From positions 429,665 through 493,664 of the forward strand of contig NZ_BMLQ01000001.1 of the NCBI RefSeq assembly GCF_014645315.1: a DNA stretch of 64,000 nucleotides, in the 5' to 3' direction. The translations under genes and the position numbers were made by a program. Below, piece after piece: positions 18,818 to 28,327 of the stretch. The notes under the pieces were generated by a model, which was not told the origin of the DNA, ran no database searches, and saw only the letters and a list, made by a program, of their open reading frames with translations. The stretch comes from Citricoccus zhacaiensis. Its GTDB lineage: Bacteria; Actinomycetota; Actinomycetes; Actinomycetales; Micrococcaceae. Position 1 is the first letter of the stretch. Each line of letters begins with the position of its first letter.

Positions 18818-19705
18818 ATGCGCACGTCATTCATTCTTCCGGTCCTTCTGGCCCCGCTGCTCCTCACGGGGTGCAGCCCTGCTGCGGAAGCCGGGCCCGC
18901 TGCCTCCAGTGCTCCGTCCACAGATCAGGCCCTGACCGATCTGGAGGAGCGGTTCTCCGGGCGGGTGGGGGTCTACGCCGTGGACACCGGGACGGGCGAG
19001 GAGGTCCAGTACCGCGCGGACGAGCGTTTCGGATATGCCTCGACGCACAAGGTGTTCTCCGCCGCCGCCGTGCTCGCCCAGAGTCAGCCGGCGGACCTGA
19101 ACCAGCGGATCCACTACTCCGCCGAGGACCTGGTGGCGAACTCTCCGATCGCCGAACAGCACGTGGAGACGGGCATGACCCTGGAGCAGATCATCGGGGC
19201 CGCCATCAGTCACAGTGACAACACCGCCGGCAACCTGCTCTTCGATGCACTCGGCGGCCCGGAGGGCCTGCAGGCCGCCTTGGTCCGCATGGGGGATGGG
19301 ATCACCTCGGTGGACCGCGAGGAGCCAGCGCTGAACGAGTGGGCTCCCGGAGAGACCCGGGACACCACGACGCCGCGCCAGGCCGCAGAGAACCTGCGCG
19401 GTTACGCCCTGGGAGAGACCCTCGAACCGTGGGCGCAGGATGAGCTGCTGGAGGCCATGCGGGCCTCGGAGAACAGCGAGGGGCTGATCCGGGCGGCTGT
19501 GCCGGAGGATGCCCCCTGGACGGTGGCGAACAAGAGTGGTGCCGGGCTGGGCCACGGCACCCGCAATGACCTCGCCGTCATCGAGCGCGAGGGTGATGCC
19601 CCGCTGCTGGTGGCCGTCTACACCAACCTCGATGACCCGGAGGGGCAGTTCCAGGACGACTTCGTGGCCCAGGCCGCCACCGTGGCCGTTGACGATCTGA
19701 CCTGA
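18818..19705 (+). CDS. Class A beta-lactamase, lipoprotein type
   Basis: A 295-residue serine beta-lactamase. Signal: hydrophobic stretch and lipobox LLTGC, with Cys19 as the lipidated residue. Catalytic motifs: STHK at 75-78 (Ser70-xx-Lys), SDN at 133-135, EPALN at 169-173 (Glu166 loop) and KSG at 239-241. All key residues of an active Ambler class A enzyme are present, so hydrolysis of penicillins outside the membrane is likely. No AmpR/BlaI-type regulator is adjacent; expression may be constitutive. Similar chromosomal lipoprotein enzymes are known in actinobacteria. Spectrum cannot be predicted from the sequence. Confidence 0.9.
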   Translation: MRTSFILPVLLAPLLLTGCSPAAEAGPAASSAPSTDQALTDLEERFSGRVGVYAVDTGTGEEVQYRADERFGYASTHKVFSAAAVLAQSQPADLNQRIHYSAEDLVANSPIAEQHVETGMTLEQIIGAAISHSDNTAGNLLFDALGGPEGLQAALVRMGDGITSVDREEPALNEWAPGETRDTTTPRQAAENLRGYALGETLEPWAQDELLEAMRASENSEGLIRAAVPEDAPWTVANKSGAGLGHGTRNDLAVIEREGDAPLLVAVYTNLDDPEGQFQDDFVAQAATVAVDDLT

Positions 19706-19774: not shown

Positions 19775-20161
19775 TCAGCCGATCTCGAGCAGGCTGCGCA
19801 GGGCGGCGAAGGCCTCCGGCACCACGGTGTAGTGCGCCCACTTGCCGCGCTGTTCGCGGGCGATCAGCCCGGCGTCGACCAGCTTCTTCATGTGGTGGCT
19901 GACGGTGGACTGGCTGATGCCCAGGTCCTCGGTGAGGTCACAGGCACAGACCGCCTCGCACCCTTGCGCGGCCACGTGGGACAACAGGCGCAGTCGCATG
20001 GGGTCGGCCAGAGCCTTGAACATGCCCGCTGAGCGGTGAGCGTCGTCGACGCCGATCGGACCGGCCGCCAGGGAGCAGCACCCGGATGAATCGGAGGCTG
20101 CGCGGTGGCGGTCCGCGGTGTCAGCGGCGGCAATGGCCGTCTGGGTAGCTGTCGGTACCAT
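19775..20161 (-). CDS. arsR: ArsR-type arsenite-responsive repressor
   Basis: A 128-residue winged-helix repressor. The helix-turn-helix is CDLTEDLGISQSTVSHHMKKL. Cysteines occur as a pair in the N-terminal extension (28, 29) and at 68, 72 and 74 near the recognition region. In the Corynebacterium ArsR an N-terminal Cys pair plus one Cys further on bind As(III), and this protein has the same layout rather than the E. coli CxCxxC in the DNA-binding helix. Start taken at ATG 20161 because TAAGAT lies 6 nt upstream, fitting a leaderless message; ATG 20164 is adjacent. Divergent from acr3. Confidence 0.88.
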   Translation of the reverse strand: MVPTATQTAIAAADTADRHRAASDSSGCCSLAAGPIGVDDAHRSAGMFKALADPMRLRLLSHVAAQGCEAVCACDLTEDLGISQSTVSHHMKKLVDAGLIAREQRGKWAHYTVVPEAFAALRSLLEIG

Positions 20162-20167
20162 CATCCC

Positions 20168-20224
20168 ATCTTACATTGACGATCATCGATATGACCAGTA
20201 GTGTTCCCATCGATGGTTATCGAT
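20168..20224. promoter_or_regulatory. arsR-acr3 divergent control region
   Basis: The 80-bp gap holds the arsR -10 box (TAAGAT on the minus strand, 20168-20173) and three copies of ATCGAT at 20185-20190, 20209-20214 and 20219-20224; the first and third are both embedded in TNATCGATAYG. The last two form ATCGAT-N4-ATCGAT, a symmetric site suitable for a dimeric repressor. Assignment to ArsR is inferred from position. Confidence 0.5.
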
Positions 20225-20241
20225 ACGAGAGTTGGGCCTGC

Positions 20242-21354
20242 ATGAGCACCACCACCGCCCCGCACCAGCCGGTGATGAAGGAGATGTCTTTCCTCGACCG
20301 TTGGCTGCCGGCCTGGATCCTGCTGGCCATGGTCGTCGGACTGGCCCTGGGCCGATTCATCCCCGGCCTGAACACCGCCCTGGAAGCAGTGAAGGTCGGC
20401 GAGGTGTCCCTGCCGATCGCCATCGGCCTGCTGGTGATGATGTACCCGGTGCTGGCCAAGGTCCGCTATGACGAGACCCACCGCGTTGCCGGGGACAAGC
20501 GGCTTATGGTCACCTCCCTGATGTTGAACTGGGTCGTCGGACCGGCCCTGATGTTCGCCCTGGCCTGGATGCTGCTGCCGGACCTGCCCGAGTACCGCAC
20601 CGGGCTGATCATCGTCGGCCTGGCACGCTGCATTGCCATGGTCTTCATCTGGAACGACCTGGCCTGCGGGGACCGGGAGGCCGCCGCAGTACTGGTGGCC
20701 ATCAATTCCGGCTTCCAGGTCATCGCGTTCGGCGCCCTGGGCTGGTTCTACCTCCAGGTACTCCCGTCCTGGCTGGGGTTGCCGACCACCTCGGCCGATT
20801 TCTCCGTCTGGTCGATCGTGCTCAGCGTCCTGGTGTTCCTGGGCGTTCCCCTGCTGGCCGGGTTCCTGACCCGCCACTTCGGTGAGAAGGCCAAGGGCCG
20901 GGACTGGTACGAGAACCACTTCCTGCCCCGCATCGGCCCCTGGGCCCTCTACGGACTCCTGTTCACGATCGTTCTGCTGTTCGCCCTGCAGGGTGAGGCC
21001 ATCACCACCAATCCCTGGGACGTCGCCCGGATCGCTCTGCCCCTGCTGGCCTACTTCGTACTCATGTTCGGCATCAGCCTCATCGCGTCCAAGGCCATCG
21101 GGCTGAACTACGCCAAGTCCACCACCGTCGCGTTCACTGCCGCCGGTAACAACTTCGAGCTCGCCATCGCCGTGGCCATCGGCACCTTCGGCGTCACCTC
21201 CGGCCAGGCCCTGGCCGGCGTCGTCGGCCCCCTGATCGAGGTGCCCGTGCTGGTCGGGCTTGTGTACGTGTCCCTGTGGGCCGGCCGCAAGCTCTTCCCC
21301 GGCGACCCCACCGTCCCCGCTCGCGCTGAGGCCCTCTCGGCGACCCGCGCCTGA
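20242..21354 (+). CDS. acr3: ACR3-family arsenite efflux transporter
   Basis: A 370-residue membrane protein with ten hydrophobic segments. It carries the ACR3 hallmark [19 protein letters not shown], including the essential cysteine, and the second signature [19 protein letters not shown] with GPLIEVPVL near the end. It exports arsenite driven by the proton gradient. The open frame runs upstream to 20176, but ATG 20242 gives the normal family length and follows the operator region. First gene of acr3-arsC-flavoprotein. Confidence 0.93.
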
Positions 21355-21383: not shown

Positions 21384-22247
21384 ATGTCCACCGATCCACG
21401 ATCCCCATCCCGTCCGTCTGTGATGTTCGTCTGTGCGAAGAACGGCGGCAAGTCCCAGATGGCCGCGGCCCTGATGGAGTACCGGGCCGCCGATGCCGTT
21501 GAGGTCCATTCCGCTGGCACCCAACCCGGCGAGACGATCAACGCGCTCTCGGCTGAGGTCATCGCCGAGGCCGGCGCGGACATGTCTGCTGGGCGCCCCA
21601 AGCCCATCGACCCGCGCCTGCTGGCCCGCGTGGACCGAGTGGTCGTCCTCGGCGACGAGGCCAAAGTCGAGCCGGTCGACGGCATGGCCGGCACCATCGA
21701 GACCTGGCACACCGACGAGCCCTCCGCCCGCGGAATCGAGGGAGCCGAGCGGATGCGCCTGGTCCGCGACGACATCGACACCCGCGTCAGGGTCCTCCTC
21801 GCCGAGCTCACCGCCACGACGCACAAGCCCTCTGTGCTGTTCGTGTGTGTGCACAACGCCGGCCGCTCCCAAATGGCCGCCGCCTACCTGTCGCACCTGG
21901 CCGGAGGCCGGATCGAGGTCCGCTCCGCAGGCTCCGCCCCGGCAGACACCGTGAACCCAGCTGCGGTGGAGGCGATGGCCGAGGAAGGCATCGACATCAG
22001 CGCGAACCAACCCAAGGTGCTGTCCGAGCAGGCCGTGAAGGACTCGGACGTGGTCATCACCATGGGGTGCGGAGACGCCTGTCCGTTCTTCCCCGGCAAG
22101 CGCTATGAGGACTGGAAGCTGGAAGATCCGGCCGGCCAGGGCATCGAGGGCGTGCGCCCCATCCGCGACGACATCAAGGCCCGCATCCAACAGCTCATCA
22201 CCGAGCTGCTGCCCGACCCCTCGACGCCGTCCACACCGAACGATTGA
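21384..22247 (+). CDS. arsC: Two-domain arsenate reductase (fused LMW-phosphatase-like modules)
   Basis: A 287-residue protein with two LMW-phosphatase/arsenate-reductase domains in tandem. Domain 1 (about 11-140) has [12 protein letters not shown]: nucleophile Cys17, but the invariant P-loop Arg is replaced by Lys23; its acid region is WHTDEPS. Domain 2 (about 148-275) has [12 protein letters not shown] with Cys155 and Arg161, [17 protein letters not shown] with Cys229 and Cys233, and LEDPAGQG. Actinobacteria usually encode these as separate proteins of about 130 residues. Domain 2 looks fully active; domain 1 may be a lysine variant of the ArsC4-like type. Reduces arsenate to arsenite for Acr3. 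Two modules 45% alike by eye came from ancient duplication or gene fusion. Confidence 0.88.
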
Positions 22248-22258
22248 GGATCATCCCC

Positions 22259-23707
22259 ATGGTTGAGGCCTTTTCCACCACCACACCCCCACCCACCGAG
22301 GCGCAGGACCTGCCCATCGTGGTCATCGGCGCCGGGCCCGTAGGACTGGCTGCCGCGGCGCACCTGCACGAACGCGGCCTGACATCGCTGATCCTGGAAG
22401 CAGGGCACGACGTCGGCACCGCCATCCGCGCGTGGGGCCACACCCGCCTGTTCTCACCCTGGCAGTACAACATCGACGCCGCCGCGGCCCGCCTACTGCA
22501 CACCACCGGCTGGACCGAACCCGACGCCCAGACCCTGCCCACCGGCACCGAACTGGTGGATCAGTACCTGGAACCGCTGGCCATCACCACCGCGTTGGCC
22601 GAACACGTGCGCACCGACACTCGGGTCCTCGCCGTGACCCGGGCCGGGATGGACAAGACCCGCACCACCGGCCGAGCCGACACCCCCTTCTTGGTCCGGA
22701 CCCAGCACACCGACGGCACCATGGAGGATATCCAGGCCTCCGCGGTGATCGACGCCTCCGGAACCTGGACCCGGCCCAACCCCCTGGGCCAGTCCGGACT
22801 GCCCGCCCCCGGCGAGACCGAGGCGCTCGCGGCCGGGCGCATCACCGCCGCGTTGCCAGACGTCACCGGTCGGGATCGGCAGCGGTTCGCCGGCCGGCAT
22901 GTGCTCGTCGTAGGGGCCGGCCACTCGGCCGCCAACACCCTGCTCGAGCTCGGTTCCCTGGCCGAGGACGAGCCGGACACCCGGATCTCGTGGGCCGTGC
23001 GCTCGGCCGACGTCTCCAGCGTCTACGGCGGCGAGGATCGCGACGAGCTGCCCGCCCGCGGCACCCTGGGCACCCGGCTGCGCCGTTTGGTGGATTCCGG
23101 GGTTATCGAGATCCACACCTCTTTCACCATCACCAGATTCACCACCACAGAGCATGGATTCTCCGTGCATGCCTCCACTCCGACCGGCGAGCAGACCGTG
23201 GCTGCGGATCTGGTGGCCCCAGCCACGGGGTTCCGCCCGGATTTGGGCATGCTGTCCGAACTCCGGTTGGACATGGACCCGGCCGTGGACGCACCCCGTC
23301 AGCTCGGCCCGCTGATCGATCCGGAGTTCCACTCCTGCGGTTCTGTGGCCCCACACGGGGCGCGGATGCTCGCGCACCCCGAGTCGGATTTCTACATCGC
23401 GGGCATGAAGAGCTACGGGCGGGCCCCGACCTTCCTGATGGCCACCGGCTACGAACAAGTCCGCTCCATCGCCGCCTCCCTGGCCGGGGACCAAGCCGCC
23501 GCTGACGCCGTGCAACTGGACCTGCCCGAGACCGGAGTCTGCTCCACCGACCTGGGTGGATCCTGCGACACACCGGCCCCCATCACGCAAGAAGCTGTCC
23601 AGAGTTGCTGCGCCCCCGTCACCGTGACGGACGGGCCCGGTGCCGACGGACGGCGGCTCGGTTCGCACACCGCACTGAGCAGTACCGCTGGCGGCCGTTG
23701 CGGGTGA
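22259..23707 (+). CDS. ars-linked FAD/NAD(P)-dependent oxidoreductase
   Basis: A 482-residue flavoprotein. FAD-binding motif IVVIGAGPVGLAAAAHL near residue 25, and a second dinucleotide fold HVLVVGAGHSAANTL near 220, as in flavin monooxygenases and thioredoxin-reductase-like proteins; ATGFRPDLG closes the fold. The C-terminus carries Cys residues (VCSTDLGGSC, SCCAP). Such flavoproteins recur at the end of actinobacterial ars operons and have been named ArsO or similar; the reaction is not settled. ATG 22259 has GAGGA at good spacing, 11 nt after the arsC stop. Its last 89 nt overlap the convergent CGNR gene. Confidence 0.8.
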   Translation: MVEAFSTTTPPPTEAQDLPIVVIGAGPVGLAAAAHLHERGLTSLILEAGHDVGTAIRAWGHTRLFSPWQYNIDAAAARLLHTTGWTEPDAQTLPTGTELVDQYLEPLAITTALAEHVRTDTRVLAVTRAGMDKTRTTGRADTPFLVRTQHTDGTMEDIQASAVIDASGTWTRPNPLGQSGLPAPGETEALAAGRITAALPDVTGRDRQRFAGRHVLVVGAGHSAANTLLELGSLAEDEPDTRISWAVRSADVSSVYGGEDRDELPARGTLGTRLRRLVDSGVIEIHTSFTITRFTTTEHGFSVHASTPTGEQTVAADLVAPATGFRPDLGMLSELRLDMDPAVDAPRQLGPLIDPEFHSCGSVAPHGARMLAHPESDFYIAGMKSYGRAPTFLMATGYEQVRSIAASLAGDQAAADAVQLDLPETGVCSTDLGGSCDTPAPITQEAVQSCCAPVTVTDGPGADGRRLGSHTALSSTAGGRCG

Positions 23708-24168: not shown

Positions 24169-24399
24169 ATGACCTCACCCCACACGTTCCCTCTGCCCCT
24201 GCAGGAAGACCGGACCACCCGGCACGAGCATGCGTGGCGCGCGGAATCGCGGCATCTGACCTCCGAGGGGCTGGTGCTCTATGTGCGTTGCACCGGCTGC
24301 GGAACCCTCCGGGTCGATGTCCAGGGGAACGATGGCCTGCCGCCCGCGGCGCTGAGCCGGGTGATCGGGGTCAGTCCACCGGAGTGGCTCCGCGGATGA
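24169..24399 (+). CDS. Small CxxC protein of unknown function
   Basis: A 76-residue protein. The centre, GLVLYVRCTGCGTLRVDVQ, is a beta-hairpin with one CxxC pair and looks like half of a zinc ribbon; metal could be shared across a dimer. The rest is polar. The codon pattern is typical for the window. It is divergent from the CGNR gene and overlaps the end of the membrane redoxin gene by 29 nt. Not recognised beyond this. Confidence 0.5.
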   Translation: MTSPHTFPLPLQEDRTTRHEHAWRAESRHLTSEGLVLYVRCTGCGTLRVDVQGNDGLPPAALSRVIGVSPPEWLRG

Positions 24400-24835
24400 C
24401 GGCCTTGGCCCGGTCATAGGACTCGGCGTCCTTGGCCACGAAGTGGTCGTCCGCGGTCACCACCGTCGGGACGGTCTCGAAGCCGTGGTGGTAATGCCGG
24501 ACGCGGTCTGCGGCGCCGGCGTCCTTCCAGATGTTCACCCAGTACACGCGCTCCCGCCCCTCGGTGCCGAGCTCGCGGATGAGCCGGGCGCAATACTGGC
24601 AGCCGGGCCGCCAGTACACCACCACTCCCCCGGCCGCCAGGTGCTCGTCCACCCCGGAGACCGGCAGGGACCGCACCTGGGTGGTGGAGACGAAGCGCAG
24701 GGCGAAGAACAGCAGGATGGCCGCGGCCACGTAGTTCAGCGGGCCCCGGCCGATCAGCCCCCAGTAGGCGAAGAGCAGCCCGAGGGCGAGCATGACGGCG
24801 GGCACGAACCACGCCTTGGACATCAGCTGGCGCAT
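24371..24835 (-). CDS. Membrane-anchored glutaredoxin/mycoredoxin-like protein
   Basis: A 154-residue protein: two membrane helices (about residues 8-50), then a thioredoxin-fold domain with YWRPGCQYCARLIRELG, so the active site is CQYC, and a cis-proline segment TVPTVVTAD. In actinobacteria such domains work with mycothiol rather than glutathione. The frame is open far upstream, but ATG 24835 (or 24823) removes an Arg-rich artefact. It lies 4 nt after the phosphatase gene stop and is likely co-transcribed with ligA and that gene. Facing of the redox domain is not certain. Confidence 0.72.
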   Translation of the reverse strand: MRQLMSKAWFVPAVMLALGLLFAYWGLIGRGPLNYVAAAILLFFALRFVSTTQVRSLPVSGVDEHLAAGGVVVYWRPGCQYCARLIRELGTEGRERVYWVNIWKDAGAADRVRHYHHGFETVPTVVTADDHFVAKDAESYDRAKAVIRGATPVD

Positions 24836-24839
24836 GGAC

Positions 24840-28327
<3,488 letters not shown>

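Follow-up and report, generated by a model that had tools for sequence, protein, structure and literature searches.

We analysed a window of 64,000 nucleotides from the genome of Citricoccus zhacaiensis, in which one open reading frame encodes two arsenate reductase (ArsC) domains in tandem (Table 1). The fused arsC is flanked by an ArsR-family gene, an ACR3 gene and a flavoprotein gene, which mark the locus as an ars operon. The flavoprotein scores far under the cut-off of the ArsO model (58.4 bits versus 425) and carries a cysteine-bearing C-terminal tail (GVCSTDLGGSCD ... SCC) that is common to its homologue on a Dietzia plasmid. Near the operon lies a class A beta-lactamase gene (18818-19705, forward strand; 262.4 bits, with a general class A cut-off of 200).

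Table 1. Features of the ars operon and of the fused arsC gene, in coordinates of the window.
Feature	Position	Strand	Basis
arsR-family repressor, divergent	19775..20164	-	NF033788, 88.9 bits, cut-off 55
acr3 arsenite efflux transporter	20176..21354	+	TIGR00832, 434.2 bits, cut-off 282.8
Fused two-domain arsenate reductase	21384..22247	+	287 aa, single ORF, two PF01451 matches
Domain 1, single-Cys Lys P-loop ArsC, mycothiol class by homology	21384..21812	+	PDB 3rh0 best match; one Cys
P-loop CAKNGGKS, nucleophile Cys17, Lys23 at usual Arg place	21432..21455	+	sequence
Junction, site of 92-nt gap versus unfused pair	21810..21827	+	DNA alignment
Domain 2, three-Cys ArsC, Arg P-loop, CGDAC pair	21822..22247	+	PDB 3t38 best match
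P-loop CVHNAGRS, nucleophile Cys155, Arg161	21846..21869	+	sequence
Putative resolving pair Cys229-Cys233 (CGDAC)	22068..22082	+	aligned to CGDVC of 3t38
Flavoprotein oxidoreductase, alternative TTG start 22244	22259..23707	+	Pfam Pyr_redox_3; recurs in related ars operons

The fused gene runs from an ATG start to a TGA stop with no internal stops, and its product has only four cysteines, at residues 17, 155, 229 and 233. Searched singly, each half exceeds the gathering score of the Pfam low-molecular-weight phosphatase model (LMWPc, PF01451; 58.8 bits for domain 1 and 85.3 bits for domain 2, cut-off 23.2) and so belongs with the arsenate reductases of that fold. Four in-frame start-type codons (ATG, GTG or TTG) fall in the region of codons 118 to 160, namely ATG124, GTG151, GTG154 and GTG156; all of these are intra-domain, so that a separate start for domain 2 is not evident. 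The preliminary description of this DNA had proposed that two sorts of ArsC are fused in frame with neither stop nor start between them, and the single frame with its two PF01451 halves agrees with that.

Domain 1 best matches PDB entry 3rh0 (E 2.1e-44), which we take to be the mycothiol-dependent ArsC2 of C. glutamicum and whose P-loop, CVGNGGKS, also has lysine. The likeness to what are presumably the ArsC1/ArsC2 enzymes of C. glutamicum covers the Lys P-loop and the whole of domain 1; theirs are single-domain proteins, whereas the Citricoccus one is fused to a second ArsC. Domain 1 has one cysteine and lacks a second Cys pair. To place the lysine, we collected segments by similarity to the fused protein, kept the 45 distinct ones that resemble domain 1 more closely than domain 2, and dropped 8 mis-anchored rows; among the remaining 37, for which the anchor demands Cys and Ser, 35 carry Lys at the position, one carries Thr and one Glu. 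A CGDxC-type pair is absent from all 45, and 33 of 35 segments in a set chosen for K or T at the Lys position have a single Cys. Because lysine is found in 35 of 37 segments of this type and in a solved homologue, it is the class state, and the anomaly that the preliminary description saw in a Lys-for-Arg P-loop is dismissed. With its nearest solved relative, single Cys and Lys P-loop, domain 1 falls within the mycothiol-dependent ArsC class of the C. glutamicum ArsC1/2 type, provided that 3rh0 itself belongs there. Of the roles earlier suggested for domain 1, that of a thiol-transfer partner would come close to the known activity of this class, and we found no support in the sequence for a regulatory site or for a reductase slowed by its lysine. 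The lysine can be lost, as seen in one of 14 fused proteins (L125, genome G020), where the motif reads CVKNGGTS. A natural domain-1-type protein with Glu at this position (L037, CVKNGGES) also exists.

Domain 2 best matches PDB entry 3t38 (E 1.1e-41), presumably ArsC1' of C. glutamicum; the two share the CVHNAGRS P-loop and a CGDxC pair (CGDVC in 3t38). With its nucleophile Cys155, Arg161, Cys229 and Cys233, domain 2 is a three-Cys ArsC. It covers residues 82-205 of the 213 in the 3t38 chain and thus lacks the N-terminal part of roughly 80 residues that distinguishes 3t38, being preceded by domain 1 instead. It stays under the equivalog cut-offs of both NCBIfam models tried, with 101.3 of 157.6 bits for glutaredoxin-type ArsC (TIGR02689) and 86.1 of 174.3 bits for thioredoxin-type ArsC (TIGR02691). 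An extra ArsC gene lies downstream of the flavoprotein gene in two related loci (L007, 12038-12418; the Dietzia plasmid L137, 8185-8814); in the Dietzia protein, residues precede the ArsC domain, the place where the 3t38 chain also has its extra residues. A literature search on the entry codes 3rh0 and 3t38 found no paper.

We also searched the genome for the thiol systems on which such enzymes depend. The MshC model matches at 564 bits against a cut-off of 485.1, and mycothiol is therefore probably made; in a control of 14 genomes a loose search matched all 14, and the cut-off was passed in 1. The models for MshA (372.2 versus 462.5 bits) and mycoredoxin (54.1 versus 89.5 bits) stay under their cut-offs in this genome. 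The best match to the mycoredoxin model falls within the same window (24437-24625, reverse strand), in a glutaredoxin-like protein (24371-25018, reverse strand) that has a CQYC motif, preceded by a stretch judged hydrophobic by eye.

According to published reviews, C. glutamicum ArsC1 and ArsC2 form an arseno-mycothiol adduct that is reduced by mycoredoxin-1 (PMC4360819; PMC10950700), and ArsC1' receives electrons from the thioredoxin pathway (PMC4360819). Fusion proteins of the ACR3-ArsC and ArsR-ArsC kinds are known from actinobacteria (PMC6514093). These resemble the Citricoccus protein in that an ArsC is joined in frame to another ars product; their partner is a transporter or repressor, whereas here it is a second ArsC of a different sort. 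We found no fusion of two ArsC proteins in the literature searched, outside of which most subscription papers lie. The fusion is a new arrangement of already known enzyme parts.

The same genome also encodes both sorts of ArsC as separate proteins, which the preliminary description had mentioned as known in actinobacteria. On contig 10, two adjacent genes (68330-68767 and 68851-69267) are 86% and 91% identical to the fused halves and are followed by a thioredoxin reductase gene (trxB) and a flavoprotein gene. Alignment with this pair shows a gap of 92 nt in the fused gene, covering the stop of the upstream gene, the spacer and the start of the downstream one; the distance from P-loop to P-loop, 506 bases in the unfused pair and 414 in the fused gene, agrees with this gap. 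We infer that the direction of change was deletion rather than insertion. A second genome of the genus (G006) has a fused gene of 90% identity with the identical 138-codon spacing between P-loops. This recurrence, together with a 92-nt gap rather than a point change, argues against sequencing error and against a stop missed between residues 140 and 148, which the preliminary description had named as one outcome that would undo its claim. Comparison of the fused gene with its G006 counterpart gives a dN/dS of 0.149 in domain 1 and 0.080 in domain 2; over 12 comparisons (7 of the first domain, 5 of the second) the values span 0.037-0.305. These values are well under 1 for both halves, both of which look maintained.

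The preliminary description had asked how common the fusion is, and would have given up its claim had the fused gene been the usual form in the family. It is not: at least 12 of 395 family genomes have it, and 336 have any match at E 1e-40. The family count is a lower bound: the matches behind it extend down to about E 7e-67, and up to six candidates were scored in the rows of each of the three large samples. All 12 family fused proteins, a set found by whole-length similarity, keep both P-loop cysteines and the CGDxC pair. Within the genus, a fused gene is present in 3 of 8 genomes. At E 1e-75, a threshold that could miss more distant fusions, 3 of 396 genomes match in the order sample (2 fused, both already counted in the family, and 1 whose in-frame pair contains a TGA), and the class sample of 394 has a single match, the Citricoccus zhacaiensis genome itself; the family, order and class samples overlap. 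Searches of single genera at E 1e-65 gave 2 of 27 (g5), 5 of 11 (g14), 2 of 9 (g21) and 0 of 30 (g12).

Fusions also occur outside the family. At least one Propionibacterium metagenome-assembled genome is fused (L036), among 80 loci kept from at least 512 confirmed relatives. On the Dietzia plasmid both halves lie in a single open frame; its gene table records the second half only, starting at an ATC codon inside the frame, and the first half is absent from it. This plasmid is one of 3 examined from 57 records with at least 80% cover; the other two (H14 and H24) were rejected as fusions, having a stop between the halves and Arg in both P-loops. Five whole-length matches were set aside for 1 or 2 TGA stops inside: G275, G296, G164 and G008, the four further family genomes in which both genes share a frame, and G671 from the order sample. 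Six others (G221, G351, G327, G299, G310 and G175), which extend past one domain or have an early start, were read as unfused. In the translations read for the set-aside group (L118, L120, L121 and L136), the stop is between the halves. The two-domain fusion is genuine and uncommon, and apparently recurrent.

The domain 1 tree and the domain 2 tree both imply 9 changes between fused and separate states, on topologies with many weak forks and flagged long rows. A single clade of the 14 fused domain-1 rows is rejected (AU test, p 0.000138), so that a single origin of the fusion is rejected on the domain 1 data; a clade of the nearer six fused rows, a group defined after inspection of the tree, is also rejected (p 0.002). 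It follows that the fusion arose repeatedly, or that genes were exchanged or split. The rejection supports repeated fusion; exchange between lineages or fission may also have occurred, as the change counts are blind to gain versus loss.

The unfused and fused operons differ in what follows them. With trxB called as a gene within 2.5 kb that shares at least 55% identity with the contig-10 copy, it lies directly downstream in 14 of 16 unfused tandem operons versus 0 of 13 fused. The main count, 13 of 15 versus 0 of 13, gives a Fisher p of 2.8e-6 with kinship ignored; the 16th unfused tandem, G280, has trxB. This count started from 34 loci, of which 29 have an adjacent or fused pair and 28 enough downstream sequence; L036 (727 bases downstream) and L173-L177 (no adjacent pair) were left out, and G275 and G296, whose domain-1 rows are identical, were each counted. 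When kinship is considered, all branches together yield 6 independent pairs and the well supported ones 2, neither of them contrary, and the sign test is not significant. Downstream of the 13 fused operons, 6 have a flavoprotein match without trxB (partial in L160) and 7 have neither, so that the entire tail may be absent in the latter. Two unfused operons (L165 and L066) also lack trxB; L165 groups with the Citricoccus fused gene in a small clade without resolved branching, and trxB loss may therefore precede fusion.

The Citricoccus protein is probably a bifunctional arsenate reductase with both halves intact, made by a short deletion that joined two neighbouring arsC genes in frame. We infer catalysis by each half, as well as the electron donors of both, from the classes to which they belong. 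In domain 1, Cys17 and the Lys P-loop would bind arsenate and help its transfer to mycothiol, and mycoredoxin would then release arsenite from the mycothiol adduct. In domain 2, Cys155 would attack arsenate and Cys229 and Cys233 would resolve the intermediate, after which a thioredoxin-type donor, the least certain step, would re-reduce the domain. Arsenite would leave through the ACR3 pump encoded just upstream.

Whether the joining itself has consequences is a separate matter. That the deletion only tethers two enzymes which act as they do when separate is, in our judgement, an even call; it is compatible with a bifunctional reductase, and our confidence in one takes nothing from the other. 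Linkers that vary in length and sequence across the 14 fused proteins, the unfused pairs alongside in the same genome and genus, and the scatter of fused forms across the trees all favour such a neutral joining, although its repeated appearance and the absence of trxB from all 13 fused operons examined hint, without proof, at a functional correlate. The trxB contrast and the position of the flavoprotein, which where kept in fused operons comes after domain 2 without trxB, could instead mean that the tethered halves share electrons or intermediates, making the operon's own thioredoxin reductase dispensable. We consider this unlikely, given that no more than two independent pairs are well supported and the sign test is not significant, and in view of the unfused operons that also lack trxB, the possible loss of the whole tail in 7 of the 13, and the trxB in the second operon of the Citricoccus genome. 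Equally doubtful is the broader proposal that recurrent, convergent fusion couples a mycothiol-class to a three-Cys ArsC and so frees the ars operon from its own thioredoxin reductase.

Domain 1 could also be decaying or regulatory, with arsenate reduced by domain 2 alone. The Thr in L125 and a dN/dS above that of domain 2 among the nearest relatives (0.149 versus 0.080; 0.120 versus 0.037) point that way, but Cys17 and Lys23 are kept, dN/dS stays at 0.120-0.305 over the seven domain 1 pairs, and the similarity to 3rh0 is strong; we regard this as improbable. That an artefact of sequencing or assembly merged two genes, for which no support was found, is barely conceivable in view of the G006 counterpart, a gap that no single-base error would make and fused genes in further genera.

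With the lysine a false puzzle is removed. A testable one takes its place: why two arsenic enzymes whose genes frequently lie side by side have apparently been fused on several occasions, and whether tethering alters the thiol system from which the cell meets the cost of reducing arsenate. For the fused enzyme, the genome itself supplies a control in the unfused pair.
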